Source of the DNA: Candidula unifasciata
Taxonomy: Eukaryota; Mollusca; Gastropoda; Stylommatophora; Geomitridae
Direction: 5' to 3'
Assembly: GCA_905116865.2 (NCBI GenBank)
Contig: CAJHNH020001112.1
Location: 1,712,932-1,776,931, forward strand
DNA length: 64,000 nt
This document shows positions 6,045 through 57,900 of this stretch, piece after piece. The notes under the pieces are model-generated. The model was not told the DNA's origin. It was given only the letters and a program-made list of their open reading frames with translations, and made no database searches. Numbering within the stretch: the stretch's first letter is position 1; every line of letters begins with the position of its first letter. The translations under genes and the position numbers were made by a program.

Positions 6045-6048
6045 GATC

Positions 6049-6529: not shown

Positions 6530-6555
6530 AACCGGTTCTACAAGCTCACTGTGGG

Positions 6556-6563
6556 TATATAAA
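6556..6563 (+). promoter_or_regulatory. TATA box of the PC4-like gene
   Basis: TATATAAA lies 53 bases before ATG 6616, the right distance for a start site near 6585-6590 and a short leader. It is the best core promoter match inside the element. Confidence 0.6.
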
Positions 6564-6615
6564 CAGCCTGAGCAGCAACCGTCTTCTTATTGCCGCCGTT
6601 ATCCGCTAACCGAGG

Positions 6616-7074: not shown

Positions 7075-7079
7075 ATAAA
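7074..7079 (+). terminator. Poly(A) signal overlapping the PC4-like stop codon
   Basis: The sequence TGAATAAA combines the TGA stop (7072-7074) with AATAAA, and a T/GT-rich stretch follows at 7100-7120. It probably ends the PC4-like transcript and perhaps the whole plus-strand set. Confidence 0.6.
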
Positions 7080-7235
7080 AGAAATATAAAACGCAAAAAT
7101 ATTGTTGTGTTATTTTTGTCTTAGTTATAAAAATGGTAAAGTTGTTATGTATATATCCACCTTATACAGGTACAGCCAGTTATCCACATCTATCTATTAG
7201 TCTCTAATTTATGAAACAGAAAGTAACCAAGAATG

Positions 7236-10411: not shown

Positions 10412-10507
10412 GCTTGGCCAATGTTCCAAGCTATGCAGAATGGCTAAATATTGAAATTGGTGAGAGTGGAGCCTATGTCGGCGTAGACAGAACCTTATAC
10501 ACACACA
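10412..10507 (+). CDS. XPNPEP2: XPNPEP2-like exon (first visible)
   Basis: Between a ttttcag acceptor and a gtaagt donor. It encodes [11 protein letters not shown] ... [13 protein letters not shown] and is phase 1 on both sides (2 bases, 31 codons, 1 base). It matches the 'THAEWL ... VGVDP' part of the N-terminal domain. Confidence 0.88.
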
Positions 10508-10842
10508 GTAAGTGCCTCTTTTTCCACATGGCTTAGATAGGCTATGCCTGCCTCTATATTAATACTTAGAAAATCGAACTGAATCGCTAGACATTTTGAT
10601 GAACAGAAAAATAGGTCCTATTTCATGGTAACCAAAACAGTCAAATACTGAGGTTCTAGAAAGAGAATAATTTAAATAAATTTGAAAAAGAAGGAGTCTA
10701 TTCAAATATGTTGGCCACATTGAAAGACATAGTAGGCTTCCATACTGGAGGTATAGGTCAAGGGCAAGAGACAGACTACTTTACAGTTTGGAAGACAAAA
10801 TCAAGAGATGGACGAACATTAGTCGGAGAGTGTGCATTGAAG

Positions 10843-10906
<64 letters not shown>

Positions 10907-11389
10907 TTTGGAGATCCAATGCAGCCGCCTTATATTGTGGAGACAGCACCTAATTGATTGATATGAATACTGTATTTGTCTTTGTTATATATTTTATAGT
11001 ATTTTATAAAAGCATGTTGATATATACTGTACTGAAATTCAAATGAACATTTGTGTGGAAAAAATATATAATGATCCTGATGGGTCAACAATAATAATCA
11101 ATAATAATAAGGTATTATAAAATAGTATTACGCTATGTGAATTTCAAAGTAATCTTCATTGTAAACTTGAACAAAGAAGACACAAGTGACAGACTGCACA
11201 ATTTAACTGCCTGTTAAAGAAGAGATAACATAGTCCATGGTTTTAAACGTATGTTTACTCTAGTAAAACATGACAATGCATTGGAAAAAGCGCACAAACG
11301 ATCCTTATATCTCCCTCAACACCTCGCTGAGATAATTTGTGGAAGAGAAGAGGATTAGGAGGAAGCAGAAGAAGAAGAAGAAGAAGAAG

Positions 11390-11422
<33 letters not shown>

Positions 11423-31592: not shown

Positions 31593-31650
<58 letters not shown>

Positions 31651-33515
31651 AAAATATGCATACCACAACCAAAATTGAATGGCAAATTGAAAAGTTCTTC
31701 GGCTGGTAGATTATTGTTTTGCATGAAACTAAAACTTGTGTGTTTGCAGATATAATTATCTTATATATCTCAGTTAGGTTGTTTTTTTTCCCCCTTTAAA
31801 TTTGACGGAAATACAAATTTAGCAAGAGTTGCCATATAAAAACATTGTTTACTTCCGAAAAGTTTCTGCCTTGCAGAATATTAGGAAAAACAAATAACAA
31901 TTAAAAAGGTATTCTGTTTGACACTTCTGGATTATAACGTGGATATGTACGAACATTTTTGTTTCCTTTCCTGTTTTTGTATATTTATGTTTCTTTATTA
32001 CATTTAGCTGTTTAATATAGTATAGATTATGTGTCATAGTCTGATTATAAATAATATGTGTTAACTATAACAGATTATCGATTAAGTGTTTTAGTTATAA
32101 TATATCCAAAGTGTAACATTAAAAAAATTGTAATAATCAGATAGTGTTACAACGTTTTTCCTGTGATTGTGTACTGTTTAGTCTTTTCTTGCGCCTTTTT
32201 AGAGGTATCTGTTTTTAGCATATTTTCCACAGCCATAAGCTTATTTCAGTGGCTCATAGTTTCACTTATAGTTGTTAACAATTTAAAGAATTAGCTGAGA
32301 TGAAGTTATTTCACCAACCTAACAATGTCCTGCCTTCAACAAATTAATGTTGTTCTTCATCAGAATAGAGATTCTGCTGCTCTCATAAAGTTCCTCGCCT
32401 TTATGGAAAATGAGGTAATGGTTTTTGTTACTGTTTCTTACAATTGTTTAACTGTGGCTGTTTACTGTTGAAACAACTAATATGTTTAATTCTGGACAGC
32501 AACAAGTCCATGAAAGTCTCTCGGTTCTATATTAATGTCTTACCCCTAGATGACATCACAGGACAGTCTAACATTTTAGAGGGTGGTAAGACTGGGTTTC
32601 CCGGCTTTCTGATACTTTTAACGACCCCAAAACATCTAGAACTGGCCCTAACCCCAACCCACCTACTTCCTACGAGAGAGTGCAGCCTAGGTCCTATGAC
32701 TGCATGCAGCCTATCTACCACCCCCTGAAATTTTAGACTGTCTGTGACCTGTGGATTTCTCCTGTTTGGGGTAGGATATTAATAAAACACCAGCCCCCTC
32801 CCCCCCCCCTAATGACAGCATGTTGTTTAAAGAACCCAACTAACTGGCGGGGGTTCTTAGAGGTTAAAGTTAAGAGGATCGACTTCACTGCACAGGGTTT
32901 TATGCCATAAGGTTAGACCTCTCTGCGGAACAGCTAGCCGCCTGCCGAGAACGTCGCACACAGCAGGAACTCCGTATGGGGAAAGTGGGAGCGAGGGGGG
33001 GGGGTGGATGGGGTTCCTTTGAAGTCGGAGCGCATCTGCCTGAGATGTGAAGAATGAACCGCTAGATCTGTAAAACGGATGTGCATTCAAGACTCCAGAA
33101 CTCAGGTTTTAGAACAAGACCACAAAGTCTAGCAGTGGAAAAAGAAACAAAACAACAACAACAGAACTGTCGGCGCTGGAGTTTACAGCAGATGAACGCT
33201 CACAAGAAAAAACAGCTTGCCAGGATGCAATCCCATCATCATCTTCATCATCATCATTATCATCATCATCTTTATTATCATCATCATCATGTAGCAGGTC
33301 CGTTACAGAATTTCACTGTCAACACAGTCCACATGACAGAAACTTCCTCGCCACTGATGATGCAATCCCAGAAAATGAACATTTTAAAACAAAATCATGG
33401 CCACAATCCTGCTGGATAAATATACCAATAGTTCTCACAGCATACTTGTTTAGGTTGTTCATGCATATATACATATATATTCTTTTAAAATACTATGGTC
33501 ATTACATATATATAT

Positions 33516-33576
<61 letters not shown>

Positions 33577-33667
33577 ATGTATATATGTATACACACACAT
33601 TAACCGTAGTATTTTCAAAGAATACTTGTATATGTATAAATGTATTCTTTGAGAATAATATGGTCTT

Positions 33668-33715
<48 letters not shown>

Positions 33716-34187
33716 AACCATTGTATTTTCAAAGAATACTTTTACATACATATGTATTCTTTGAAAATAATATGGTCATTACACACACACACACACACAT
33801 ACACACACACACACACAATAACCATTGTATTTTCAAAGAATACTTTTACATACATATGTATTCTTTGAAAATAATATGGTCATTACACACACACACACAC
33901 ATACACACACACACACAATAACCATTGTATTTTCAAATAATACTTTTACATACATATGTATTCTTTGAAAATAATATGGTCATTACACACACACACACAC
34001 ATACACACACACACACACAATAACCATTGTATTTTCAAATAATACTTTTACATACATATGTATTCTTTGAAAATAATATGGTCATTACACACACACACAC
34101 ACACATACACACACACACACACAATAACCATAGTATTTTCAAGAAATACTTTTACATACATCTGTATTCTTTGAAAATAATATTGTC

Positions 34188-34257
<70 letters not shown>

Positions 34258-37200
34258 CGACAATATATATATATATATATATATATAATTATCCTAGAGA
34301 TGACCCTCAGGGTTAAACAGGAAATTATTGACAAGTACCGCTATGTTTGAATTGATTATTTTGTCCTTTTATTGTGTTTGTGTTGCTTGTGCTTCTCTGA
34401 ATCCTCTCTGAAAGTTCTACAATATAAATAGAACACAGCTTTACAAACGTTGGTTCAGTCCATTCACGTTCCTGTGGTGCTCTTACATATCGCATCGAGA
34501 TCACAGTCTACTTCTTCATTTCATTTAATTCTGTGCAATCACTTCAGTATCATCGATGGAAGCTAGTCGGGCGACTTTGGTTTCTTTCATCAACGTTCTC
34601 TTTAGGGATTCTCTTGGACGTCATCTCTTCCTTAGCCCCTCTGTTTCCCATTCCAGTGCCTGTTCGGTGATTCTCTGCCCGTCTATTCTCTGAATGTGTC
34701 AAATATCGCGCCACTGATTCAATTGCATAACAATAATTGTATATGATTTGGTCGTGAAGATCACATCAGGAAAGGACTGGACAGAGGTCACGGCAGCAGC
34801 CGAACTGGATGGCAGGAGGAAGTAAGCTTTTTATTATTTTTTACATTATTCAGACTAATTACTGTTCCCACCATACAGCTACACGGAAACCAAAACAGCT
34901 CTAAAGCATTCTTTCAGCGAGGAGTGGAGAAGGCAGAAAGGAGACTACAGAGAGTGACAGCATAAACAACCTCAACAGGAAAGAACAAACATCAATTTTT
35001 AAGCTTCGGACAGGACACTGTGGTCTTGTAGCACACCTGCACAGGATAGGCATAAAAGAATCTGCTGCCTGTTATTGTGGAGCAGAAAGACAGACTCCTG
35101 AGCCCATACTGCAGAACTGCTCTGATTACTTCCAGCAAAGATTGTGGATCTGGCACAAGGTAGCCACACTACAAGAGAAGCTGGGGTGGGGTGGGGGGTG
35201 GGGGGGGGGGAGGCTGCACAAACCTATTTGTGACCCAGACGGGGCTGAATATTTAGCATGGCTGATGTCGACCGCAGAAGAAGAAAAAGATTATTGTTCC
35301 CATCTGCGTTTTGCATCCCATTCAGGGTAGAGAATAATAAATCCATTGCACCTTAACACTTTCAGTCCCCTGGCAGGTGTTGCGTTAACATTTTCTCTCC
35401 TTGGTACCCTAAGTAATAAATGTGTAGGTATGATGGGATAAAAGAAATAACTATATGAGACAAGAAGACTTAAAGAAACAACTGGAAAAGGGTGGGTTAG
35501 ATCCCAGCATCGGGCCATTCGCCTTGCGTTGGTTTCGACTGTGGTATCAAGAAAGCCGACCGTCCAGGAAGCAATGGCAAACTACTGGACGTAAATTTGC
35601 TTAGAAAAACCACACAACAGCCAGGGTCTGTTGGGGTTGGTTCTCCAACGTCCTGTAAAGGATACACAATCAACCTTTGTACATCAACTGCATGGGTGTA
35701 CAAGGTGTCCATAAAAGTATGTTATGCTGCTGGAAACCAACAAAGGTATCGTGAGTTGTTGGCACTAGGTTAACACACATGTCGCAAATTGCTACTATCC
35801 CGTGCTGGTAGTGGGAGCCCTTTGTGATGGGGAGGGGGAGGGGAGGTAGACCCACTATCCCCAACAAGCATTACATAAGAGTCGACTAATCAGATATGTT
35901 TGCTTCGAAATTAGAGTGCTTCTTCCTGACAGGCAAAAAACCAACAGTCTTCAAACCAATTTTTAAAAACGTTAGTTGCGTACAGAATACAGTTGCATGA
36001 CAATACGCCCCTTACAGGACGTCGCAGAACCAACCACAATATATTTCGGCTGTTGTGTTTTTTTTCTAGGCAAATTTTACGTTCAGTAGTTTGCCACTGC
36101 TTACTGAACGGTCAGCTCTCGGTACGCAAGACAAACTGTCCGCAGCTGGGATCGAACCCGGTACCCCGGCATCACAAAGCGCGTTGGCAACGCCTAAGCC
36201 ACAGACGCAGACTCAAAGCAAAAAGCCAGGTCCGTAAAACGTATCTGCACACAAAACTCATGTTCAATGCTAAAGTCCAGAAGTGGATTGGGTGAAAAAT
36301 CAGAGCCTTTTGCTGGAGTTTACACCTTGTGAACACTAAGAAAAAGAAGTAGAGAAATGGCTTCCAATTGACAGTTTGTTAAAAACAAGACATGTTTGGT
36401 CGAAGCGTGCAGATATCAAAGCTTAATTTCAAAGGTTATGATTAAATACTTGTACTGGACACACTAACATGGTGCTGGCTCTCACTCTCTTGTACCCCAC
36501 CAGGACATCACATAAGCGATAAACACTCGGTGACACAAAGTGCCACCATGCGGATGAGGATCACCCGTGGAGAAGTCCTAGAAACCCTTCAGCCGTTAGG
36601 CCATATTTATGGCCCGGTTATATTCAGGGTCCCCGGCAAAAGCCAGGGCGGGGCTTCACATAACGAAAAATTGCATTCCACATGGGGACGACTGATAAAT
36701 GATGGTGCTGCCTGCAGCCCTGTGTAGGTAATAATCATGTGCCTACTTGTCCGGCATGCCCACGATGCTTACATTTTTCCCTGTATTTCTTAGAAAGTTA
36801 CAGTATAACAGAGGGCTGAGTTTCACCACAATATCTGGATATGGAAGCGATGGGGCAATCATCCACTACAGCCCTAGCAACACTACAGACAAGAAGATCT
36901 CCACAGATAGTTTCTACCTTCTTGATTCTGGTGGACAATATCTGTAAGTTATATCCCTTTAAATATATATATTTGTACATAAAATTGACTTTATTGTTCA
37001 CTGAAAAAACTAAGTCTGTTTTCATGCCATTTTATAGAACCTATCATAGTATATTGAGGTAACAAAAGACATTTCAAGAGCTCTCTATAACCAATCCTGG
37101 TGTATGGAAGTGAATCATGGATAGTTAGCAGAAAAGTAAAATATTATGTGGACGTTAAGACATGTGATTTTACAGAATTATTATGAAAATGCCACAGGTA

Positions 37201-40200
37201 ACTTTTAAGAAAAAGGTCGAGAACCCTCTGAAAAAGATGCTTTAGCAATGCGGAGACTAAAAAAGCTTGAAGATCATATGGCAAAGCCCCTGCAAATGAG
37301 TTAAAGTGAACATTTTGAGATCTTGCATCTTTACCATGATAACTTATGGATTTGAGCCGTGGGCTCCTACTCGGTCATTAAAGAACAGACCAACAGCATC
37401 CTGTCCCAAACGCGTAGCTATTTTAGACATGTTAAATGTCACGGTGGACTGGAGAGAAGGATGAAGGAGGCCAAAGTTTCTAGAAAACTAGGCAGTTGTA
37501 GATCTAAGCAAAGGTGAATATATGACAATGAAGATGCATTGGCTATGAAAGCACCTAGGGCTGGAGAATTGGCTAGAGAAAAGAGGCTTTCAACCATCTC
37601 ATGACAAGAGCGACGATCTGTACAGACTGAGGTTGAGCTTATCATACATGTCCTAACAGGTGACTGGGAATGGCTGACATGAGACTGGCTGCCTCACTCC
37701 ATAGAAACTTTAGCTAAAAAATTCAACTAATCGTACACACATCCCTATTGCTCAATGAATGCAGCTGTGAGTCAAAAATGATTATACTGACACATGTTCG
37801 CTCAGTATTGCAAGCAATAAAAAATGATAAGCAACTACAGTTCAACAAGCTTAGATCTATGCTAAATCAAATGGGTCAACTAACAAGGCAGACTGTGCTC
37901 CAGTGGATCCCACCCCATTGAGGTAAAATAAAAAGTAGACTATTGAGCTAAGGTTAGAAGTCTTACAGAACAGCCAAATACAGGATGCACTTATAAGGAA
38001 AATCGTTCATTCTTCCATCAGAAGTAATGAGGAGAACTCTTTCTTTCATCCGTCATGAAACTGCAGTTGAAGGTGTATGAGTCCGGAGTTAACTTATAAG
38101 TCCAATACCTGCCCGGGAGTGTCTTGAACAATGAGGGCAGGGCACAGTGCCTGTAGACAAATGGCCTGTTTTGTGGTTCTTTCGTATCTGTCTTCACTGT
38201 TAAGCTGCCAGTGTTCTAGATGCCTCGTAGATCATTGCACCGTTTCGAATATATGTGCGCCATGAAGCTCGGTGTTGTGCTGCAGCCTCCTATGTGTCAG
38301 GGTTTATACTGAAGGCTTTCAATAATGCCTTTTGTGTGTCCTTGAAGAGCTTTTTCTGGCCCCCACGAGAACGTCGATCTTCATGTATCTCACCATAGAA
38401 GATTATTTTTTTGGAGTAGATGGTCAGGCATTCGAACAATATGGCCAGCCCATGGAATCTGTGACTGCATCAGGATGGTATTGATGCTGGGAATACCAGC
38501 CCTGTCCAGTACGCCATTGTCCGGGACCATGTCTTGCCACTTAATGTTTAGTATCTTTCTCAGACAGACTGTAAGGAAGTGACTGAATTTGTTGCCTGCC
38601 TTCTGTATACAGTCCAAGTTTCACAGGCATAGATTGGCACTTGGGGAAAATACAACTTATATGAAGGCAGCTGTTCAAACGCATTGGAACATTTCCCATT
38701 GATGACACAATCCTGAAGACCGAATCAACATAATCAATGAAAAATAGACCATTATATCTGTCGACTGGACACAACAGACTTTGCAGCCATATGTACAAGA
38801 AATACAAGATTGAGGATTCAGAACTTTACCCATGTGAACAGCCACCACAGAATACAGAACTTGTGCTACAGACATGCTCGCTACATGCACGATAAAGATC
38901 CCCGGTCTGGCCGGTCAGGGTTCCAATGAAAACTGTGATGAGGTGCTGTGCATGGTCTTCACGATTACATTGTGGCAAGAAGAAAGTCCGTGCTACAAGT
39001 GACGGCACGAGATACTTGTGGCCGGTGGAGTAAGCGAGGCGAAGCCCGAGCTAGCCTCGTGGTCAGTCGATCATTAGAAGTCAGAGAAGACGGTTGTAGT
39101 ATTTGAAGATGTCGTCTTTATGTCGGGTAAATGGTTAATGTTCGAATGTGTCGCGAGTGAAATAAATGTGAAATAAATGGACCAGAATAAACTGACAGAT
39201 TGTACAATGAAGCTGAGTGGCGTTAGTGTTGTCAACCCTAGATGTTAAAGCTGGTGCAAACCAAGGTACATTTCAAGTCCACGTCAAGGTTCATTCAAAG
39301 TTGAATCAGAATCATTTCAGAAACCAAGCTGCATGAAACAGTGGAAGGCATGCATCATACCACTGACTTCACAGAGACCGGTGACCTTCTTGTGTAAAAA
39401 CCAATGGCAGGAGAAACGAAAAAAGATAAACAGATCAACAAAGGGCGAGGGTGTAGTGACACAGCACGTGCTTCAGTGGCAAAAGGAACGAAAAGTAGAT
39501 AAACGGATCAACAAAGGCTGGGGATATAGTGACTGACAGCATGTGCTCCAGTGGCAGAAGAAAAGCAGAAATAGAAGTGAAACTGTAGACTAATGAATTG
39601 ATTTTTCTCTATCTGCTGCAGGGATGGAACCACAGATGTAACCCGAACACTACATTATGGCAACCCGACAAGTTATGAGAAGGTAAACTTTGTGATTCTG
39701 TTATTTATTTCTCGCAAACATATAGAGTACTAGCACCTTTTTGTATCTTTTTTCTTTTAGCGCTGCTGTAATAGACACTTTATGGTTTGATTTGATTTCA
39801 TTTGATTAAAGAACCAACATCACAGCACTCGGGGCATTCCCATAAGCGCTCCATTCCCATCTGTAGCAGCCAGCGAAAAGTTCTGATACTAATGGTGCCA
39901 GTAGCATTCTGATTAAACGACAATCTTGCCTTTCCTCTGAGCCTCCAGCATCTGCCGGAACCTCTCGTCACTCCCCCCTGCATCAATCTCACCAGACTGT
40001 GGTGATCTATCTGCTCCTCCGAACTGTACACGCTCTCCCACAAGGCCCTAACCACGTCTGCCTTATCATGTATCAGTATTCCACCAAGTTGTACAGAGCC
40101 AGCCAGTCTGTCCGCATGTTCATTTCGTGGCCTGGTGACAAAATCCAGACAATACTCCTTACCCGTGTCCTCGGCAGCGAAGCATGCCACTCTGCACGAA

Positions 40201-40254
40201 GCATGCCTGTCCTGATCTTCCTCAGCATACTTTCTGAGTCAGTTACAATCACGA

Positions 40255-40315
<61 letters not shown>

Positions 40316-43300
40316 TATTCTCTTTATGGTGAAAACCGGCACCTTTTTCAGGCATTCTGGGGTGAGTACCGGCACCTTTGTTTCGAGAAAACAAGCTCTG
40401 CTTAAATATATTTGACAATCTAAAACAGCTGATACCATGGGCCACTAAATCATCTGCCCAAAGACTTCTAATCATCATTAGCAACTCTAGCAACCCAGCA
40501 TAAGTGATAGGTTTTCTCATTTAGAATAAGATCTGTGTCCTGTTTGATCCAGGCTTTTCATAGCCCTAGTTTTGGCGGAAAACATAATATACCTACTGCA
40601 CCTTAACCAACGTGTCAATCATTACGGATTTGCTGAAATCACCTGTGTTGGGTAGAAGACAGCAAATATTGCAGCCTTGCTGAAAACCACAACACAATGT
40701 GCCAACCATAATTTCTGAGGGCAAAGTCAAGCTCAGTCTAACAAGTAACACTTGCGCTTCTTGAACACTTACATTTATAAATTAACACCTTCATGTGATG
40801 GCTGTTTGTTTTGAATTTACACCCCACATACACCGAAAGTTATAATTTTGTATCCATTATCCCACATTTGCCTTGTAAATAAGCATTGTTAACATTAATG
40901 ATTTCTGTAATTACTTTTCTAGGAATGCTACACTCGTGTTTTGATGGCCGCTATTAGTCTAGCAATGTTGAAGTGGCCCCAAGGACTGTATGGTAAGTTA
41001 CACTTTCAGTTTTCAATAATATTTCTTCACAATAATTTACATTAGGATATCCTATCTGGATCTTGATACCCAGTCCTTACAAACCCGAGTGGATCAGTCA
41101 CAGTTACGATGGTTTGGACATGTATGCAGAATGGGAGAAAATCGGCCACCATGGCAGGCATGGGAGGCTAAGAACCAGGGAACCAGACCTCCAGGACGAC
41201 CCAGGGTGCGCTGGGAAGAAAACATCCGACATTCCCTAACTGACAGAGGACTGGAATGGAACAAAGCCAGAAAGAAAACTGCTGATAGAGATGTCTGGCA
41301 ATCTCTCTGGCAAACCTCTACACCCCAAGGTAGAAGAGGAGCGACTAAGTAAGTGAAGTGAATATCCTATCTCTCACTTTCTGTATTACTTTTTAAAAAT
41401 GTATTACATAATAATATCATGTTTCTCATTTTCTGTATTATTTTTTCACTATGTTTTACATTTGATAGGATATCTTATCTCTCGGTTTCTGTATTATATC
41501 TTCATAATGTAGTACATAAGGTTATCTTATCTCTCAGTTTATGTATTCCTTCTTAACAATGTATTACATTAAGATATCTTATCTCTAAGTATCTGTGTTA
41601 CTTCTTCACAATGTTTTAGATTAAAATATCTTATCTCCCAGTTTATGTATTGTATCTTCACAATGCAATACACCAGGATATCTTATCTCTCAGTATCTGT
41701 ATTACGCCTTCCCATTGTATAACATTATGATATCTTTTCTCTCAGTATCTGTATTACATCTTCACATTGTATGACATTAGGATACCTTATATCTCAGTTT
41801 CTGTATTACATCTTCACATTGCATAAAAGAGTTACATAGTGTGGTCAGTCAAACATTCAGACTGACGATCACTGTAAACTTACAAGAATAACATATAAAT
41901 TATGCAAGGAAACTCCAATATAAAACATTTATCTGGCGGGTAGGTGCATTTATTACTGAGGAGATGGAGCACCTTTGGCTATGAAATGAGTGCAGTCATG
42001 ACTATTCAAACTAAATTGAACCAAGTCTACTCACATTAACTTGTTAATTTGTTAGGGGACTTTGAAGAAATATCCTGTTAAACATTTATGAAAACATTGT
42101 CCTTTCCAGGGCGTCAGATTGATGCTATTGCACGATCTCCTTTGTGGGAAGTAGGTTTTGTCTATAGACATGGCACAGGGCACGGGATTGGTTCTTATCT
42201 GAGTGTGCATGAAGGTAGGTAAGACTTAAATACTGCTAGACTTCAATACAGTTAATGCAATAATTTACTGTGTAAAATACAGCAAAAAAATACAGCTATA
42301 TACACAGTTAATTGTACAGGTAACCAAGTGGCAGGTACTTCCAGTAAAGTTTGTATACTGCAGAATAAACAAACAAAAATAAAGTAAAAATAAAGGACCC
42401 TTTTCCATGCCCACGTGCATTGGGCCAACGCTGTCTCTAATTGTGCCTCACAACTAAATGACCCACTTTTTGAAAGGAGTCCCTCAGAAACTGGTTACTT
42501 GAAGCCCTTTCCATGTGTTGCATCGTGTGACATTTTAATGTGCTTACGAAGTTCTGTGTTCTGAATGTATTCGCATTACAGATCGACAAGCGGATATTGT
42601 GAAGTGGATATACACGATATTGCTTTCATACTGACTGTGTATAAATAGTGCAACTACACTGTGGATAAATAGTGTCAAGATATTTCGGAGCTCTGGGTTA
42701 GTGGATGAAAATTATATTTAATTTACTAACTAACCTCTCACAGCAATTCACTCTTTGCCTATTTACTAATTGTTGACTAACAGTATAATTATATATTGTA
42801 GAAGTACACTAATAATATTAATCCTCGACCATCTGTCTTATGCTTCACAAACACTGGCTGTAAACTCTGGCAGAAACTTCTGGTTGTTCATCTACTTCTT
42901 ATGCATTTTTGCAGTTGTACGGTCTGTGTTAATTTTTGTAAATTGGCTTCTGTTTCGTGAACACTGGCTGTAAACTCTAGCAGAAACTTCTGGTTGTTCA
43001 CCTACTTCTTATGCATATTTGCAGTTGTACGGTCTGGGTTAATTTTTGTAAATTGGCTTCTGTTTCGCAAACACTGGCTGTAAACTCTGGCAGAAACTTC
43101 TGGTTGTTCATCTACTTCTTATGTATATTTGCAGTTGTACGGTCTGGGTTAATTTTTGTAAATTTGCTTCTGTTTCGCAAACACTGGCTGTAAACTCTGG
43201 CAGAAACTTCTGGTTGTTCATCTACTTCTTATGCATATCTGCAGTTGTACGGTCTATGTTAATTTTTGTAAATTTGCTTCTGTTTCCCAAACACTGGCTG

Positions 43301-45936
43301 TAAGCTCTGGCAGAAACTTCTGGTTGTTCATCTACTTCGTATGCATATTTGCACTTGTACGGTCTGTGTTAATTTTTGTGAATTTGCTTCTGTTTCGTGA
43401 ACACTGGTTGTAAACTCTGGCAGAAACTTCTGGTTGTTCAACTACTTCTTATGCATATTTGCAGTTGAACGGTCTGTAATAATTTTTGTAAATTGGCTTC
43501 TGTTTCGTGAACACTGGCTGTAAACTCTGGCAGAAACTTCTGTTTGTTCATCTACTTCTTATGCATATTTGCAGTTGTACGGTCTATGTTAATTTTTTAT
43601 AAATTGGCTTCTGTTTCGCAAACACTGGCTGTAAACTCTGGCAGAAACTTTTGGTTGTTCATCTACTTCTTATGCATATTTGCAGTTGTACGGTCTGGGT
43701 TAATTTTTGTAAATTTGCTTCTGTTTCGCAAACACTGGCTGTAAACTCTGGCAGAAACTTCTGGTTGTTCATCTACTTCTTATGCATATTTGCAGTTGTA
43801 CGGTCTGTGTTAATTTTTGTGAATTTGCTTCTGTTTCGTGAAAACTGGCTGTAAACTCTGGCAGAAACTTCTGGTTGTTCATCTACTTCTTATGCATATT
43901 TGCAGTTGTACGGTCTGTGTTAATTTTTGTAAATTTGCTTCTGTTTCGCAAACACTGGCTGAAAACTCTGGCAGAAACTTCTGGTTGTTCATCTACTACT
44001 TATGCATATTTGCAGTTGTACTATGTGTGTTAATTTTTGTAAATTTGCTTTTGTTTCGTGAACACTGGCTGTAAACTCTGGCAGAAACTTCTAGTTGTCA
44101 TCTACTTCTTATGCATATTTGCAGTTGTACGGTTTGGGTTAATTTTTGTAAATTGGCTTCTGTTTCGCAAACACTGGCTGTAAACTCTGGCAGAAACTTC
44201 TGGTTGTTCATCTACTTCTTATGCATATTTGCAGTTGTACGGTCTATGTTAATTTTTGTAAATTTGCTTCTGTTTCGCAAACACTGGCTGTAAACTCTGG
44301 TAGAAACGTCTGGCTGTTCCTCTACTTCTTAAGCATATTTGCAGTTGTACTGTCTGTGTTAATTTTGGAAATTTGCTTCTGTTTCGTGAACACTGGCTGA
44401 AAACTCTGGCAGAAACTTCTGGTTGTTCATCTACTTCTTATGCATATTTGCAATTGTACGGTCTGGGTTAATTTTTGTAAATTTGCTTCTGTTTCGCAAA
44501 CACTGGCTGTAAACTCTGGCAGAAACTTCTGTTTGTTCATCTAATTCTGGGCTTTAGTCTTGTTTCAGATACTGTTTTGAACAACGAGATCTGGTATCTA
44601 TATGGGAAATTTTTGTGTTTGATATGTGTATGTTGCACAGCATTTGCAGTTATATGGTCTTTTTTAAATTGCTTTAATTACCTTAAAAATAATATACCAT
44701 TCATGATACTTATTCGCGTTGTTGCATGCAGTATTCAGAAATATTTGTGATGTATTTTTAAACAGTTACCAAAAAATCATAAGGAATTGATTTAATCCAA
44801 CAAGATGAAACTGGACAAATTTGTTTGTGCTGTTTGTACCTTGAGGATAAGTATTTAGTAGTGCTATAAATACTGTTAAGAAAACTGCTCTGGGTGAAAA
44901 GTTATTGCAAACGTAAAAATGTACAAATGTCACCCCTCCCCCCCCCCCTTTTTCCCCCGGGCTCCTCTGATGCAACAATACCCTCTCAAAATCAAAGAGT
45001 TAGCACTGATATTTCTTTACTTTTGCTGGAATAACTTTCAGTTTATATCCAAACGTTATTAATGTTTATGTTCATGTTGACTGTAGCAAGGGCAATTTTG
45101 TTTGTCTGTAAAAGCCTTTATTGTTATTAGTAAATAACACACTTATTTACCTCAAAAATAACGTATAGTTCTATAAAATATGTCGAAAATTAATGAAACT
45201 GTAGTTTAATTTGTGTATACATCTCTTAGATAAAAACTGTGGACGCAAAGGGACTCCATTCTTGCACAAGAACGGGAATCCCCATTGACCTGTTTGGCCT
45301 TTAATAGAGAAGGCTGTGATTGGGCATATAGGGCAATACATATATTTTATAGACCAATCATCACTCGGTGAGTGATGTGGTCAGCATCACGTCGGCCGTC
45401 TTTACTTCACAGGACTATACCTGGTACCTACTCAAGACTGGGTTGACCTGGGAGGTAATGTCATTTTGGGAAAAAAATCCAACTCTGTCAGGGAGAAAAA
45501 AACGTTAATCATCTATTTCCATGTCTTGTAGTGTAATGGATACAAAATAGTGATAAATCAAGTATTTTTTTAAATAAACCAGTCCAAACTTGATGAATGA
45601 TATAGTTAATATCAAACTGGCTCCCTTTAATTCCCATGACAAATCCTAGCAATAGATTTGTAAGGCTAAGTCAAGCTGAGCGTTATGGTAATTTCTTTTT
45701 TTTTATTAAATCACCTCAGCGGGGATTCAAACTTATGACCATTACCCAGAACATAATTTTGCAGGTCACTGCACTACCATGATGATGGTTATCATCATCA
45801 TCATCAAGTGCTTTGCTGTCTGGCATTGGCGATCATGCGTCTCCATACTCTGCGATCTTCAACAGCTTGTATTATCTCTGTGCTGACATTCCTGACATAA
45901 CTCCCAACCTGTTGTTATAGAATTTTAAAAAAAAGT

Positions 45937-45967
<31 letters not shown>

Positions 45968-48900
45968 TTTCCACACCTTCAGATGCATTTGTTTGATAAA
46001 ACTTGACCTATATTTTATAGACCTATCGATTACCCGACTCGCTAGCGTAGTTGGCTAAACCTGATTTCGCGATGACCGGGTGACGAACTCCTTGTTGCCT
46101 GGGTTCACGCCTGGGGTTAGGCAGAAAAGCCACATTTCTCCTAGATTTACAGTATCTATCATCGAATCAAGGCCGAAGGGTTGCGATATCCACAGTACCG
46201 AGCCAGAGGGGTTAAGAACTCATGGTTTCTGGGGGGGGGGGGGGGAGGGTGGTGACCTATCGACACTTGTTGGTTTATGTTATCAGCATCATGCGGGCTG
46301 CATTTACTTCCCAGGACTTTACCTGGTACTCAATTAAGGCTGGGTCAATCTGAAAGCCAAGATCATTTTTGAAAAAAAAAAAGTAAGCCCCGTCAGGACA
46401 TGAACCCACAACCTTTGGATCGACACCACGGCAGTCACCAGGCTGCTGTTGCTGAAGGTTAAATCCTGGACCTCAGTTACCCAGCCATCTTGTAAGCCAC
46501 AGACTGTAAGAAGATACTGAGAATCGACTGTTGATGTTTAAAATTATGCTCAAATATGTATGCATGTCCATTTATTTTCCACACATTTAAAGGACCTGGA
46601 AGTATAGGTTTGACAACATCGTCGCATCCAAGCTCAGAACCGCTTTATGCAAATCAGTATTACTCAGATGGTATGGAATACGTATTTATAATGGTGCTAT
46701 ATCTGCTTTCCATTTATTTGCTTAACATTATATTCTAGAAGCTAACATCAATCTAACTTGTATTTGTCACACAAACAGGCCCAGGTCGGATCAAACTGGT
46801 TACAGAAATAAACCCCAGTGATGAACCTTTGACCTCATATCAATATTTCTCAGATGGTAGGAAGCTGCATGAGTTCATTTAATATTAAGCATGAGTAATA
46901 TTGGCTGTAGGTCAATCCTGTTTTTCTGAGAAGCCAGAAAACCGACACTTCTGGCTGGACCTATTTCCCCACAATTGTCACTTTTCTGACTTGCCTACAA
47001 GAATGTTTATGAAATGCTTGGTTAGTGCTATTGGCTGAGTTCACGTTCACAACTTTCGAATGTTTAGGAGGTCAGGATGTGAATTTATTAGCTTAAAATA
47101 GCTTTTAGGTGATTTTCCTGCAAAACCAAATCTAATTTTCAAATGAGCTTTAGTGATAGAGGTCGTGGGATCACAGCATGAGTTATCCGATACGGTAAAT
47201 TGTAAGCTGGTCTCCCCATTTACACACTGCTACACACTAGCTCGCTTCTGATTGGACAAACTACTGACCACCTCACTTCTAATAGGTCGGCCTCGAGCGA
47301 TCCGACTTTCACACAAGGTCATGTGGAGATTCAGCACTCGCGCTCATACCGCGTGTTGTATATTTCACCATGCCAGAGATTGTAACACTTCTAAAACATT
47401 TAGATACTGAGTCTAACACACAACCACCCCCCCCCCCCCCCCCCAAGAGAGTAACAAAAACTATGTCACAGGCCGTCTCTTTCTCGGAAATAAAAACGTA
47501 AATGCCAGACAACAGACTGCGACACCCCTAACCTCGACCACAGTAGACTAGTTCAACCAACTTATCAATGGGGTTGACCTACAACCGGTGGTGTGTAAAT
47601 GGGGAAACCATCGTATAAATAACCTCCGAAACATATAGTTTATTGGGTTCCAGAGAGAGTATTTAGTTTTATGCTTGACTCTGTTTTTTGTATTTAAGCA
47701 TCATCATCATCATCATTATCGATATCATAAACCACTTCTGCCGTTAAGCGACGTGGGGAGGAATAATTTGCAATCCAGTGCATGTTGGCTGCCACTGGCT
47801 ATTGTCATGCCGGGAAGGTGTAGAGTGTCTCTAATGTCGTCGATCCATTGTTTCCGCGGCCGTCCTCTTACTCTTGTAGCTGATCTTCTGAGATGTAGTG
47901 TTTGTGATGGTATTTGATCTTGTGGCATTCTAACGTAATGACCAAACCACTTGATCTGTTGTTTCTCAAATAAATCTAGAACAAGGTGTCGTTCCCACAA
48001 TTTGCCTGATAGTTTCATTGTTCACTTGATCTCGGATGGTTAGGTTGGCTGCTTTTCTCAGGCACCTCATCTCGCAGGTGGTGATTTTGCGTATATGGGC
48101 TTCAGACAGAGTCCATGTTTGGCACTGGTAGCTTAATGTTGGAATGAATATGCTATATGACCATAATTTCTCCAAGACTCGTCTTTAGATGTTTTAATTT
48201 TGCGTGTTGCTTCTCTTCTTACTAATCTGTATTTAATGATAACTCCCTTTATATGTCTATTTATAGTTCCCCAAAATAAAACAAAACAAAAAGGAAAAAA
48301 TGTTGATAAATCATTAAAAAAATATTATTAGTGTCGTAAGAAAAATTGTTTTGTTAAAGCATTTTGTCTGAAATTTTCATGAGGCCACTCCCCCCCCCCC
48401 CCCCTTTTTTTTTTCTTTTTTTTTTTTTCTTTAAGCGTTATCAGTGCAACAAGGTTAACATGTTTTATAAGAAATTAATTTATTGGGAAAAAGGGTCTCT
48501 TGAACTGGATTGTTATTTTATTAATTGCTGTCGCTTTTTATTTATTTTTGTTTCTTTGCATTCATTTGTGGCCATTTACAGAGCTTCTGGACTTTGTAAC
48601 AGTCTACAAGATTGCATTATAAATCTTCACATTGTTTGCCAACTTGGCATATTTTCCATACAGCTCATTATTTACTAACTTATTATAAAATTAACCAGCA
48701 GAAAGTTTTGTATAATTATATGTTCCTACGAGGTTAGTGGCAATAACAGATATTAATGACAGGAGTTAATTAATAGAAAGTTATTAAAAATAGACTAGGA
48801 ATGGATACAAAACAATTTAAACAAGATAAAAAAAAATGTTTTAGAAGGATTAACCTATTTATAAAGAGAACATTCAAAAATTAAAATACGCGGTGGCGAT

Positions 48901-51900
48901 CAAAACCTTTGTTTAAAGAAAAGAATAATGTGAACACACAACTGGCTGTCACCCAAAAATAACAATAAAAGATGAAGAAAATGTCACAAACTTTTAATGT
49001 CTAGGCTTTTGCAAAAAACAGCAATGGAGACTGTTCAATAATAGTCCAAAGGGGGATGACCATAGCAATACAAAGATTATCACAGCTTTATAAGTCTGTG
49101 GTCAAGCATCAAAAAGGAAATTAAAGTGAAAATTCTGAGAGCATGCATCAGATCTGTAGCAACATACGGATGTGAGTCGTGGACTATCTCCCAGTCCTTA
49201 AGGGAAGAAAATATGGGCTTTTCAGCTGAATTGCTATAGAAAGTTTCAGTATACCATGGACAAAGAAGAAAAGAAATACTGACATTCTATTTTAAAAGAT
49301 TTGAACATCAAGGAAAATTGGCTAATAAACAGCATTTTGTCTCACAAGCTGAAATATTAAACATATCAAGCAACGTGGTGGAAAGGAAAGGAAAAAAAAA
49401 AACAACCCCGATGGAAACAGGTAAACAGTGAGTCATTAGAAAAAAATGTGCGCGAGGCCAGAGGGTTAGCACCACGGCATCTCCCTTGAGTGTATATACC
49501 TATATTATATGTTCGTGTGTATGTAGACACACATGTGTGCATTCCCATTGGCGTGGGGAGGTGTATAGCCAACCTTCATTAAGAGATGGTACCCATTTGA
49601 TTGACATAATTTCTGCAAAGTGAGTCATTTAATTCTTCCTCTAAATCAAAGTTTAGCAAATGTTTAGATACATATATTCTATGTGATTTGGTCAAAATAA
49701 CATAATCTGCCATAACTTTTTGAGTCCCAAAGAACGCATCATACGTTCATAGATTCCTACCTAGAGACCCGATGAACGCATGATGTGACGATTTTAGTCT
49801 TTCTTGACTACCCCTTAGGCCTGTCATGCTAAACCCCCTGGGACTCAAAGAGTTAAAAGTGTTCATGTAATCACAACTCAAACATTACGGCAAATGGTTC
49901 ACTCCACAGTTGCTCAATTTCCTGTGCCGATCACTTTCCTTGTGAAATAACTGACAGTTTTAGCTTACTGAATGCATAAGGCAGCCATCATAACTGCCAA
50001 CACAAAGAGATCAGTACCAGAAAGGCAGTTCATCATCGGCAGAAGCAGCAGTTACAACAAATCAGTAGTTGTACATGCAATTAATCACATAAAGCAACAT
50101 CAGTTTAAGAAACACTTGCCATTTTATGAATGCTTTGTTCACAATAGGTAGGTCGGTAATTGTACCCCACCAGGACATCGCACAAGAAATAAACACCCGG
50201 TGACACAAAGTGCCACCACGCGGATGAGGATCACCCGTGGAGAGGTCCCAGAAATCCTGCTCAGCTGTTGGGCCATTTTTCAGGCCCGGTTATATTTAGG
50301 GCCCGGGCAAAAGCCAGAGTTGGGCTTCAAAACACCTCAAAACTGCATCGCAATACAAACCACCTTCGGCACAGTCGAACTGCACTGCAAACAAAATTGG
50401 CATTCACAATTTTGCTCTATGCATTCAGCTGGGTGACGGAACTATGCACCTGGAAGCCCAAGGACAATTATAAAAATCTGCATCAGTGGATTCCGACCCA
50501 AGACTTTCTCGCTGGTAGGCACCATTTAGCCACTGTGCCACAACAGATTCTATCTGCCTTTACTTCCCATAATATTTCCTGGTATAAATATAGGACGCGT
50601 TTGACCCGAGAGCCAAGGACAATTTTTAAAATATCGTCATAGAGATAAACTACCCACTGATTTTCTGTGCTCATTTCTGTTTGTATTATTGCCTACTGAA
50701 TGTGCAGATACTTTTCTAAATGTATGAATTCTACTAGAGTATTTATTAAATATCTGTATGTGAATTTTTCGGAATGTGTGGATTCTACTGTTTAAATGTG
50801 TGAACTTTTTTTAAATGTGTAAACTTTTCTATATGTGTTAATTCTACTAACTAAATGTGCTGCATATACCCACCCTGACATGTTACTGTTTGTTTATTCA
50901 ACGGATTAACATCATGGCACAGGGGTGTAACCCATAAGTGCTCCGTTCTACTTCAAACTCAAATCTGGGGCTGAAGAATCTCAGCCCAGTGCACGAACTC
51001 CATCACATCAGCGAGGATCCTAAAATACTATGGGTAGATTTTTTCCCGGGCAGCGCCATTGGGCTACTCCTTTTCGATCTTCAACTGTCAGGGGATTTTT
51101 TTTTACGTTCACACTGGCATCCGGTCTTACTATCCAGAGACCATGGGAAATTACTAGACGTCCACGTAAAAAAAAAAAAAAAACAGCCTGGGTTTGAAAC
51201 CGGGACTCCAGTACTAGAGGTAGATGCCATGCCTCGAGACCACTCAGTCCCTAGACATGTTACTTTTGCCCATGGCTTTGGGTGACTTGGGTAGTAACAC
51301 GACAGCTTTAATCATTCTGATTTACTGATTTTAGAATTGACTTTATAGCACACCGAGCATACTGTCGTGAGCCCACGTGGGTAAATACACTTATATAGTG
51401 AGTGTTTAGGTTTGAACTCTAACAGTGCCCACCCACGTGAGAAACTGGACTAATATTTAAGCTATGTTGATCCTAGACAGTCCTGGATAACCAAGAAAAC
51501 AGCGGGTGGCTGGTTCCATTAAATGAAAGTTGCTGTACTTGTATCCACAGGAGTAGGAGAAGGGATAGATAGATATCAAGATGAACCCAATGAGATAATA
51601 TCAAGAAACACAGTTAACCCCTCCAACTTTCTCCTCTCCTGGCATTACTTAAAAGCCCCCGTCAAGTGATTTACATATTTGTCAGCTGAAGTAAACTAGT
51701 CTGCACAAAGACACTTGAACCTAAGTACACAATTTACTCAACTATTTTTAACAACATGAACAAGAGTTAGTGAATAAATCTTACCAAAAATAAAAGGAAC
51801 GTGTTTAGGCTAGTAGAGTGAAGATTGTGTTTTTGATGAAGTTAGTTCATATACGTAGCTCATAATTGGAGAAAATAAACCTTTGGACAGTTCTCGGTTT

Positions 51901-54900
51901 GAGACCCTGCCTATCCTTTTCCAGTTTGTCGTCCTCACTGCTTTCAAGCAGGTCGTAACACTCAGACGGTCGGCAAAGAATGAATGCCTACTAAGTCCCT
52001 GTCCAATGTGGGAACTGTGGTAAAGAAACAAGCGCATTTGTGTAGTATCTAATCTAGATGTACACTAAGCATGTATATTATAATAACACCAAACATGTCT
52101 TTTCTTTAAAAAAAATTTCATCTCTCCCTCATTTTCACATTCACTGCTGTCCAGTCTGGAAGGGATTATGTCTCACATTCAAGCCGTTACATTTCCTGCC
52201 TTCCTCTACGCACGTCCTGTAATGATAGTCAAGTCTTATATGTCTGATGTCATCTCTCGTACAGACTCAAAATGACAATCAGTTAGAAAGAACAAGTTCT
52301 GGAATAAATGGTTTGGAACAATGGACGCGCCCAGAATGCTAACAATATTTCTGGGGCGAATCAAATAACAAATCTCAGGGATTCACTCTCTAGGATCAAT
52401 CTTCACAATAGCCTCTCGGGAGTTAAACACATTTCAGTGTGTTAGCTGTATGTAATACAGATTCAAATTAACCACACGTGAGAAGACTGCTACAATTATC
52501 TTCACGCTTGTGATTTTAGAAAAATGATAGTTCATTAAATTTCAATGGTAACATCAGCATTTAAGTTATATAACATTGAAACACATGTGCACGAAAAAAC
52601 ATTCATGACACTGTCAATAACGATATAAAGCAATGTGACAGTGCCCTACGGGAATGGAGAAATGTCCGCTAAGGAGTACTGCAAAGTGATGAAGACACAC
52701 ACTTGAGCAAAAAGACAGTTAGATTTCTATAACGAAGTAAAGGTTTTAAAACTAGTTTCGCTTACCTGGAAAATGAAAACACAATGCCAAAAGTTATGTC
52801 TCAAGTTTAGGGTTTAAGCCCAACAGATGGTGTTACCAGTTCTAGAATCCACCCTTTTATAACTTCTTCTAAGCTCCTTCTACATTACTTCTAAAATCAC
52901 TCTCATTCAAGGATGTCACAGCCCCATCCCGTTGGTAAGTCTGGGGCGAAATTAACTGTCAGTCAAGACTGTACAAAACTTGTTTGCCTTTTCACGGCTA
53001 CGTTCTCTTGTTCAATAAAGCTGGTCAAAGCTCATAAACAAAGTCACACCCCCGCCCCCTTTCTTCAACCTGCCATCACCTTTACCCGACTGTGTCAATA
53101 TTGGCGATCTGACTTGCCCTTAAGCTGGGTAACCTCAGGGGGAGATAATTACAATTAGCCTGAGTTATCTGCTCCTAAAGGTCTGGCTAGGAGATAATTA
53201 TCTGAAACCTCAGTTCTGCAAGCAAAAATCTCCAGCAACTAAGCCTGGGTTGGTCAGTCTTACTGGCGTCACAACGTCTACCTGCTTAGTCGTGTTATCT
53301 GTACCTTAACACTTAACATATGGGAAAAAGTCTCAGTGTTTGATATCACCAGCAGTCCAGGAGAATTAAATAGGGTTGTTCTGGTAGTCGACCTTGAAAT
53401 AGGATATACCAAAAACCATATTTTTCTGTATACTTTAAAATACATAGACAACAATGTAGGTTGAGGAAAGACATTCTGAAGTCACCGAGCGTGTCGTCAC
53501 ACATACCCACAGATGCTCCGTCTCCAGCAGCAAATGTCTAAAGGTGGAGATGCTAACTGTTCCCGTATCTCTCATACATCCCTCCTTGACAGATCGACTC
53601 CTAATTCCTCATTTTCACATTCTTCCATATGTTTTTCATCTAACCTCGTGTCTTCTATCAACATTCGTTCATACATGGGTTACACAATATCTCTTTTGTC
53701 CAGTACGAGTTTCCATAGCTATTGCTTTTGTAGCCAGAAAATCTGCTCTTTCATTCCCGCATATCCCAGACATTATATTCACGTAGTTCCCGTCAATATT
53801 GACGTATTGATGCTTTCATCAGTTTTCTGAAAGATGAATCAAAGAAAAACGTGACATATGATAACGTTGAAAAATGGTTTCACCTGTGATCAGAACACAG
53901 TTTAATGTGATTTGCTTTCAGAACCAGGTTATTATGAAGATGGGAAATTCGGTATACGATTGGAAACCATTGTTATGGTAAAGACAGCTACTCCAAAGGT
54001 CAGTATACTGTTTTAACTTTTTATATACCAAGCAGTTGTGGTGATTTAGAAATGGCGAACGTGCTTCGTAATGCTGAAGTGCTGAGTTCATGTCCAGCTG
54101 CAGGTGTTATGGCAGCAGACCACTTTGCGTTGGTTTCAACAGCGATATCGAGAGCCAACCATTCATAGAGTAATGGCAAACTACAGTACGTAAAATATGC
54201 CTAGTAAAATTGCAAAGCCTAAAAAAAATGCTAAGGTTAGTTCTGAAAAGTTCTGTAAAAGACATGTAACTAACTACTAAATACAGTGTAGATCTGATAA
54301 GGAAAGCTGACCGGGGACCCCCAAAAAACAGTTCTTCTTAACAGGAATTTCTCTTATCCGGATAGGAATTTAGGCAAAAAAATTGCCAGTGAAAAACAAA
54401 CTGTTTACAGAAGCAAGCTTCAGGCCTCAGAAATGTGATATCCGAAAAAAGTATCCGAGTAACAAAAATGGACAGAGTTCGTATTAAAACAATGTGTCAG
54501 GATCTTGAAACCCAGGCTCTACAAACTTAAACAGATCAATCAGTTACAATGGTTATCATGAAAGTCATCCACATGTGAGATGCAATTCTTTTGTTATTTG
54601 AAGCCCCGCACTAGCTTTTTCTGGAGGCCCTGAATATAGCCGGAGCATAAATATGGCCTAACCATAGATGTGGCTGTAAGGGGGGTTCTGGGACCTCTCC
54701 ATGGGTGATCCCCATCTGCATAGTAGCACTTCGTGTCACCGGGTGTTTATCGCATGTGTGATGTTCTGGTAGGGTACAACTACCTACCTACCTACGATTG
54801 TTTGGACATGCATGCAGAATTGATGGGAGACTGAGAACCAGGGAACCAGACCACCAGGGCGACCTAGGGTTAGCTGGGAAGGCAAAAGCAAAATCTGACA

Positions 54901-57900
54901 GTCCCTGACTGACATAGGACTAGAATGGAACAAAGCCAAAAAGAAAACCACAGATAGAAAAGTCTGGCAATCTCACTGATAAACCTCAAACCCCGAGGTA
55001 GAAGAGGCGCGACTAAGTGTAGGGTAGTAGCTAGATACTCACAGATCTTGGCTACATGTCTGCATTGAGGCTTCTATAACCTTGGCTTCCATGTAGACTC
55101 AGCCTAATATGGGTACAGGTAATGTGCTAGGAAGTCAAGATGGCTGACGTGGTGTTAATCACATCACCCAACAAATCTCCACGGCCCAAGGAATGCCTCA
55201 TACGTTCATAGGTTCCTACCTAGAAGTCCTGTGAACGCAAGATGTTTCAATTTTATGACACTCTTTCCTACCCTATAGGCCTCTGATGCTAAACCCCTCT
55301 GGGACTGAAAGAGTTAACACTCGGTTATTTTTAAAAAGTGTGAGTATAGTATCATATGCTGGAACAGCCACTGGCATAAAATGTGTCCTTTCCTTATAGC
55401 AAGGAATTCATTGTGCATATTTCATGGAGACAAAACAATTACAGAGGTTCAGAGAAAACCTACAATAAAAAGAGAGCTATCTTTCTATCTTCTTTTACCC
55501 CACGAGGACATCACACAAGCGATAAGCACCTGAGGACACAAAGTGCCACAATGTGGATGAGGATCACCTGTGGACAGGTCTCAGAAACCGCGTTCAGCCA
55601 TTAGACCATATTATGGCCTGGCTATATTGCAGCCCCTGGCAAGAGCCAGGGTGGGGCTTCAAATAACGAAACATTTCATCCTAAAAATTATCGTGTGTAT
55701 ACTTATTAAAAAGAGAGTCGCTAAAGGACAAGGAAATAATAAAGAGGGTGCGGGAGCGAAACAATTAAAACATGAAAAGTTGAAGGAAAGAGGATAAAAT
55801 GTAGAAACCGATACAAGTGGGAAGACAACATCAAGAGATGGACATACAGCAGTATGAGAATTACAGCCAAGGCAAGTGGCAGATTTGTTGGTGATCCGTT
55901 GATTTTTAGGTGTGGAATTGACACCTGATTGACTGAGAGTTATATTCCTTCATGAAACTGTTTTTAATGCATTTTCTTAAGGTTTAAAAAATACATCATT
56001 AAGGTAATTTCTATGTCGAAGAAATTAGAATACAAGGCCCCCTCCCCCCCCCCTCCTATTTATGTATTGTATATATAATGTTTCCCTTTCATCTGTAAAT
56101 TGTGTTGATTATATATCTCCCCAGTATACAACTGCAAATGAAACATTTTATGAGTTTCAACACATCACATTGGTGCCTTTTGAGAGAAAGCTCATTGATT
56201 ATTCACTACTCACTTTGAAACAGGTAAACGAAAAATGCATGCTTTATCTACACTTTCATATAATACATAATAAATAGGCAATTGTATGTGTGTACATAAA
56301 TATACACATACACATATATTTAGTGTCTACTGTAATAATGATGTAATAATAAAAATAATGTAGAAAGCAACGTGAAACTTTTGTGGCTTTTGAGCTGAAA
56401 TGCTATAGAAAGATTCACAGAATTTTTTGGACAAAGAAGAGGAAAAATAATGACATCTTGAAAGATCTCAACATCAAGGAAGATTGGCTAATAAACAGCA
56501 TCCTGTCTCGGAAGCTGAAATATTTTGGTCATATCAAGCACCACGATGGGGTGGAATAAAATTATAGCAGAAGGCATGGTACCAGGTAGGAAGGGCAGGA
56601 GCTGACCGACATGAAGATGGGCACAGGATATAAGTGACTCCTTGAGTATGAAAGTCCATGAGGCGGGAGAACTGGCGAGAAACCGAGTTTCTTTCAGGCA
56701 GACCGTGATGAGAGTGACGTTCTGCAAAGGACCTGCTACATGATGATGACTGTAAACAGCTGACAACTGTGCACCTAAACAGGATGGAAGAGCTTGCTGA
56801 GGCAATCAGAAACAATCCACCTATGCGTATGAACAACAACAAAAGTATGTGCAGTCTATTACTTTCTTCCCTAAAGAGGAAGTTTAAACACTGGAGACAA
56901 TAGATTTTTTATTAAATATCAAGAAAGGAGAAAAAGATGAATAACTTGGTCACAAAATGAGATATGAACATTTATTACTAATGATGTTAAAGAACAAAAT
57001 TTAATGCAGGAGAGGCTATGCTGGGGGGGGGGGGGGGGGGGGGGGGGGGGAGGACACTATTTGCAGCGTGCAAGGATGCTGATAGAGAAAATTGACTTTA
57101 AGCTGAAGAATGTTGTAATGAAGAAGAGACACAGAGGGGCATGGCTTCAATTCCTGTGCCCAGGTATTTTTTTTTTCCCACTAGAAAAATATAATTAGAG
57201 GCACAAGCTTTCTCAAGATGATTCCAGAACAAAACAAAAGAAAGAAGACTGAGTTCTAGATCGCTGCCACATTACCTCTTATAGTCCTAGGAAACACACA
57301 TGTTGTGTGACAATCACTTAATTTCCCTCCATGGGCTAATTATTATTTTTGTTGGCACCTTTCCGCCTGTCCAGACGATATTATTAGATTATGCTAGAAG
57401 GAGGCATGGGGCTCACAGCTAATGGTGAGTGCGGCTAGCAAGACCCGGCCGTGTTAAGAAGTTTTCCGCAATTAGAACATGGAATTTTAGGTCTATTTCT
57501 GCCATCTTATGTATTTAGAAGTTTGTTTTCAGATGCTCAGCTCTCATCTTCCCTTCATTCTCACTCCCTTCCTGATTTGTCCCCTCCATGCAACATAGCC
57601 CATGCCATTTTGTTCCAACAAATCTACCTCAGTACCTGTATCATTCGTGCCCCCTTTAGCTTGTTGTGACTAAATGTTAAACTTAAAAAATCTGGCTTCT
57701 CTAATTTAATTACCACTATGTGTATTGCCACATGGAAAGTAAAGCTTTTTTCATCATGAGTCTTTTCTTCACTTTGGCATCTCCTGTGAAACGTTACGGT
57801 GCTAAAAGAGTTAAAGTCTGGATTATAAAGAATTAACAGTAACTATCTGAACCAAAGGCAGCCTTGGTAGCATTTTGCTAGACACTCACTTGCCGGTTTG

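Follow-up and report, generated by a model that had tools for sequence, protein, structure and literature searches.

A 64,000-nucleotide stretch of contig CAJHNH020001112.1 from the snail Candidula unifasciata, hereafter called the window, covers most of a gene for an aminopeptidase in which the exon next to the active site is present in two tandem copies. The portion of the gene inside the window (10412..59629, forward strand) comprises 18 coding exons, with both copies counted, and closes with the codons for a hydrophobic C-terminal tail, followed by the stop codon at 59627-59629. The two copies, exon A (46593..46670, forward strand; GPGSIGLTTSSHPSSEPLYANQYYSD) and exon B (46779..46856, forward strand; GPGRIKLVTEINPSDEPLTSYQYFSD), are each 78 nucleotides (nt) long, lie in phase 1 at either end and are bordered by AG upstream and GT downstream; their products are identical at 15 and different at 11 of 26 residues. 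The intron that separates them (46671..46778, forward strand) measures 108 nt, and the remaining 16 introns between the 18 exons range from 1,117 to 7,065 nt. On the 5' side of the pair, the constitutive exon at 42110..42214 (forward strand) encodes HGTGHG...VHE, with the equivalents of human His485, His489 and His498, and ends in phase 1. On the 3' side, the constitutive exon at 53922..53998 (forward strand) encodes EPGYYEDG..., with the metal ligands equivalent to human Glu523 and Glu537, and the segment specified by A or B thus bridges VHE (human His498) and EPGYY (human Glu523).

An initial annotation of this region had described two exons of equal length and phase with a short spacer, had noted that either exon or both together provide a complete reading frame, had assigned the gene to the aminopeptidases and had placed the exchanged segment at the border of the catalytic pocket. 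Upon rechecking, the coordinates, lengths and borders proved to be as described, and the frame stays open to the stop codon with A only, B only or both and also when both are skipped. The segment indeed lies between the catalytic His and a metal-binding Glu and contains substrate-subsite residues, as judged from the available part of a recent structural study (PMC13100289). Taking all the evidence detailed below, we consider it likely that A and B are tandem-duplicated functional exons of which usually one enters each mRNA, giving rise to two enzymes with predicted differences in their prime-side preference.

The Pfam domains PF00557, PF16189 and PF16188 scored above their cut-offs in both the A and the B version of a 267-residue partial protein, the last of them barely so (29.6 and 29.5, respectively, versus 28.9), and an M24 domain, a creatinase-type N domain and an M24 C-terminal region are all present in the spliced protein. 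Its top match among solved structures is human XPNPEP1 (3CTZ), which likewise ranks first in fold similarity to the model predicted for the Bradybaena similaris homolog P0003 (E-value 6.6e-73; template modelling score 0.89 by target length). Residues D471, D482, H545, H554, E582 and E596 (P0003 numbering) are invariant in an alignment of 53 proteins chosen from the sequences fetched, including Candidula P0002; the accessible text of PMC5774706 gives D415, D426, H489, E523 and E537 as the human metal ligands and H498 as the catalytic His. By its domains and the 3CTZ match, the gene is assigned to the aminopeptidases P (M24B, XPNPEP1/2 class), with predicted Xaa-Pro cleavage. The fold, metal ligands and catalytic His are shared with the aminopeptidases P of human, C. 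elegans and P. falciparum (3CTZ, 4S2R, 5JQK), whereas, in contrast to mammalian XPNPEP1, the segment comprises 26 rather than 23 residues (dog P0108) and its exon is duplicated. The enzyme is probably secreted or membrane-bound. An XPNPEP2-like membrane form would carry a signal peptide and a GPI-type C-terminal tail, for which a hydrophobic N-terminus in Bradybaena P0003 and the hydrophobic C-terminal tail in the window, both recognized by eye only, may be candidates. Among the best 120 of 7995 relatives, a list clustered at 90% identity in which further isoforms are hidden, the closest is C. unifasciata P0002, followed by B. similaris P0003 and Arion vulgaris P0004. The protein spliced with exon B, the copy used in the Candidula annotation, is identical to residues 36-607 of P0002 (572/572). 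No match to the approximately 33 N-terminal residues of P0002 that precede the first window exon was seen within the window, which places the start of the gene upstream of it.

The similarity between A and B corresponds to a BLOSUM62 score of 77, a value that was not attained by any of 200,000 shuffles of A (maximum 37). When the six frames of the window were searched with a profile built from 68 homologous segments of 26 residues, only the A and B loci scored, reaching 61.3 and 52.6 bits (third best, -1.2), values that are somewhat flattered given that the profile included P0002, identical to exon B, and P0003; this search revealed neither a third nor an antisense copy on either strand of the window. 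The two exons are homologous neighbours of equal phase that keep the frame whichever of them is used, as is characteristic of tandem-duplicated exons. A duplicate created during assembly is ruled out by the differences at 11 of 26 residues, the saturation of synonymous sites and the use of different codons for 10 of the 15 identical residues. The upstream intron flanks of A and B align with a local score of 18, reached by 12 of 2000 shuffles, and the downstream flanks with a score of 9, reached by 1615 of 2000; the duplicated unit may, as a weak indication, include the upstream intron.

Neither copy looks dead, because amino acids have been kept while synonymous sites became saturated (proportion of synonymous differences, pS, 0.905; nonsynonymous divergence, dN, 0.42). 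In 2000 simple neutral simulations, halted at the observed number of synonymous differences, the 15 identical residues were never retained (mean 2.25, maximum 11), a result that reflects constraint on the pair rather than on either copy singly. Exon A taken by itself can be judged against Bradybaena: its product is orthologue-like, agreeing with the segment of Bradybaena P0003 at 21 of 26 positions, similar to the rest of the protein (465 of 580 aligned residues, 80%), and 21 or fewer identities occur in 42% of the 555 stretches of 26 residues elsewhere in the Candidula-Bradybaena comparison. Exon B is found exactly in Candidula P0002 and agrees with its counterparts in Arion and Aplysia at 17 and 19 of 26 positions, respectively. 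The gene sets of the two related snails thus contain different copies, with only B in Candidula and only the A-type in the listed protein of Bradybaena. This distribution could mean that a single copy is in use here (B, as annotated), with A as a disappearing relic, and that the reverse is true in Bradybaena. We regard such a scenario as unlikely, since A is as conserved between the two snails as the rest of the gene and has retained an intact frame and intact splice sites. Moreover, the Candidula gene set comprises 22,464 mRNAs for 22,464 genes, according to the available portion of PMC8496239; with one mRNA per gene, it cannot display a second isoform, so the lack of an A isoform in it is no evidence of absence. 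With their conserved products and intact signals, A and B both look like functional coding exons.

The position of the exchanged segment suggests that it may affect peptide selectivity. In the predicted structure of P0003, which contains an A-type segment, the mean predicted local distance difference test score (pLDDT) is 91.8, with block means of 73-94 in the segment (residues 556-581), and short strands are formed at both of its ends. For the aminopeptidase P of P. falciparum (PfAPP), a 2026 study (PMC13100289) equates, in the part available, Ser658 of the S2' subsite with Gly503 of hAPP1 and Pro661 of the S4' C-loop with Tyr506 of hAPP1; counted along alignments, these residues map to exon positions 4 and 7. 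Of 68 single segments of 26 residues, 62 have Arg at position 4, and the other six include the A-type segment of Bradybaena (Ser) and a segment of Babylonia (Phe). In tandem pairs, exactly one copy lacks this Arg in 3/3 cases, with Ser (A) and Arg (B) in the window, Arg then Phe in Nucella and Arg then Asp in Elysia. In addition, B contains five charged residues before the final Asp and A only one. Because A has Ser at position 4 and lacks the other variable charges, the isoforms are expected from the position of these residues to differ at P2' and beyond, with catalysis itself unaffected. In the sequence of events that we propose, the exon running from just past the catalytic His to just before the metal-binding Glu would have been duplicated in tandem, and both copies would have been kept as functional coding exons, with one of them normally included in the mRNA. 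The two resulting enzymes would differ solely in a 26-residue hairpin beside the active site, in which B carries the Arg typical of the family at position 4 and A carries Ser, leading to a retuned peptide selectivity. We infer that splicing proceeds one exon at a time, is regulated between tissues and alters specificity, and that A and B would be strictly mutually exclusive.

Evidence on the mode of splicing comes from 31 listed proteins encoded on contigs of less than 4 kb, which are probably transcripts because they specify 381-754 residues. All 31 contain a single copy of the segment (22-28 residues), and none of them is assigned to a named species in which a pair is known. In a small matrix built from the gene's own introns, the donors of A and B are tied as the second weakest of 17, and the acceptors of B and A rank third and eleventh, respectively, of 18, lowest first. 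Weak donors are consistent with regulated exons.

Several observations weigh against the use of one exon at a time and against a change in specificity. The gene models of Nucella lapillus (P0051) and Elysia crispata (P0010) include both copies, no sequence feature clearly bars joint inclusion, with CTAAC located 75-86 nt from the A donor, and the region folds no better than shuffled sequences (z -0.56; 29/100 as good). As for specificity, A and B share Leu at position 7 and hence differ at just one of the two subsite residues mapped, and Ser658 is described in the accessible part of PMC13100289 as making no direct contact with the inhibitor, its C-beta being about 6.3 Å off. The first of these findings would be explained if A and B were usually included jointly, in which case a double segment of 52 residues would adjoin the active site and the single-exon annotations would be incomplete; both exons together are in frame, and the 108-nt intron contains consensus branch-like sites. 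However, joint inclusion as the usual state appears improbable in view of the single copy in the Candidula and Bradybaena models and in the transcript-like proteins. In the Nucella P0051 model, moreover, disorder is predicted midway through the double segment (pLDDT below 50 for residues 591-614), although this low confidence may stem only from the sparse coverage of the insert, which is present in 2 of 53 alignment rows. The pipeline used for Nucella retained only the longest isoform per gene, as stated in the available text of PMC12506669, so that a joint model of alternative exons would be favoured. Together, the single-copy proteins and the predicted disorder in Nucella make one copy per mRNA the likelier state.

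No mechanism of exclusion was evident in the sequence when branch-site motifs, folding and inverted repeats were examined. Judged by motif only, branch-like sites follow the A donor at 75 and 86 nt (CTAAC; 33 and 22 nt before B), at 55 nt (TTAAC) and at 46 and 18 nt (TTTAT). With CTAAC at 75-86 nt but TTAAC at 55 nt, these spacings lend no positive evidence to steric crowding, which may nevertheless operate, and the ordinary fold lends none to a strong RNA structure. With regard to exclusion by docking through competing base pairs, a 12-nt inverted pair links the end of exon A (46655-46666) with the intron after B (46892-46903) at 92% and represents a lead only. Incompatibility between U12- and U2-type splice sites was rejected on account of the borders of A and B, which by eye are ordinary-looking GT-AG.

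Still less probable is the notion that the 26-residue exon as a whole is an optional cassette, with A, B and skipping among several states. The frame survives skipping, and two models, from Babylonia and Sinanodonta, lack the segment, but these are just 2 of 120 listed and may be annotation errors. Skipping would, in addition, delete the residues that separate the catalytic His from the metal Glu, the first two of which (GP) do not vary among the 53 chosen proteins; of 116 parsed proteins, only P0064 and P0110 are without HEGP.

Among the 120 listed relatives, 116 could be parsed by motif, of which 114 have one segment (22-28 residues) and two, Nucella lapillus P0051 and Elysia crispata P0010, have two consecutive 26-residue segments. 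The search of other molluscs for the duplicated exon suggested by the initial annotation therefore uncovered two further gastropod gene models. Its remark that no such case was known in this family holds for the published record, since no report of tandem exons in aminopeptidase P was found in the open-licence literature (titles and abstract starts, with most subscription journals outside), but not for gene models. A search directed at the double segment gave 90 hits among 216 candidates but no third two-copy protein, and the best 120 of 922 matches from a third protein search contained no further two-copy snail protein; single-isoform gene sets cannot reveal the absence of a second copy. Of the four unparsed proteins, P0054 and P0059 have one divergent segment and Babylonia areolata P0085 and Sinanodonta woodiana P0080 none; in the latter two, VHE is directly joined to EPGYY, reflecting either skipping or missed alternative exons. 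Another Babylonia protein, P0052 (isoform X2), has a Phe-type segment matching the second Nucella copy at 17 of 26 positions. Phe at position 4 (GPGFIS...) is also seen in P0146, a transcript-like protein of 282 residues from a contig of 2,204 nt that is nearest to bivalve sequences, and this residue, as in the derived copy of neogastropods, could be the sign of an alternative isoform in bivalves.

When 41 chosen proteins were placed in a tree with the segment left out, Nucella clustered with Pomacea, Littorina and Babylonia; Elysia and Candidula belonged to a separate well-supported group, together with Aplysia, Lymnaea and Arion. In the window, the derived copy comes first and the Arg copy second; in Nucella and Elysia, this order is reversed. 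Across lineages, derived copies share 8, 11 and 13 of 26 residues, compared with 15, 11 and 15 for the copies within pairs. Because copy order differs and derived copies are no closer across lineages than within pairs, separate duplications are favoured, which suggests that the exon was duplicated at least twice in gastropods. A single old pair with later losses behind all gastropod pairs is possible, but both features argue against it. It is conceivable, albeit rather doubtful, that gastropods repeatedly duplicated this exon and that one copy was each time released from the S2' Arg, amounting to a parallel, splice-encoded switch in prime-side specificity.

Tandem duplicated exons are well known as a kind, and it is their placement in the active-site exon of an aminopeptidase P that is unusual. 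The snail pair resembles exons 3A/3C of ketohexokinase, where an alternative exon of an enzyme lies directly beside the ATP site and exon choice alters kinetics. It differs from them in that enzyme and fold are unrelated and in that exclusivity and tissue use are established for ketohexokinase, whereas exclusivity is putative for the snail pair. Exons 4a/4b of OGDH are likewise arranged in tandem, and the intron between them is size-limited, according to the accessible part of PMC7969005; in the snail gene, by contrast, CTAAC sites are located 75-86 nt from the A donor, with weaker matches alone nearer to it. Tandem duplicated exon substitutions, reported in the available text of PMC9741552 to have evolved convergently in different animal groups, share with A and B the adjacency of homologous exons and the restriction of isoform differences to a single homologous stretch. 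Unlike in those cases, as far as this text goes, the stretch in the snail holds the mapped S2' and S4' residues (PMC13100289) and is flanked by the catalytic His and the metal Glu; neither "peptidase" nor "XPNPEP" occurs in the main text of PMC9741552.

The window contains further repetitive features. Positions 1-7961 hold a Polinton/Maverick-like element, probably situated in an intron of the aminopeptidase gene or just 5' of the gene, with inverted arms at 1-732 and 7236-7961 (97-98%), the first of which may begin before the window. Its open reading frames (ORFs) include, by Pfam, an A32-like packaging ATPase (796-1236) and an rve integrase with a chromodomain (2152-3237) as well as a weak adenovirus-type protease match just under the Pfam cut-off (5977-6393); the ORFs at 3466-4287 and 4645-5421 have no Pfam match. 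In the intron before exon A (43162-44397), units with near-identical open frames are repeated 441 and 549 bases apart, as seen from the ORF list only.

If RNA data confirm our interpretation, one gene would provide two peptide-trimming activities that differ solely in a 26-residue pocket hairpin. Members of the aminopeptidase P family degrade kinins such as bradykinin, and the snail pair would, if our reading is true, constitute a clean natural experiment on the prime-side specificity of these enzymes. Moreover, with the same exon present in tandem in three gastropod lineages, the repeatability of exon duplication would become testable in one small segment.
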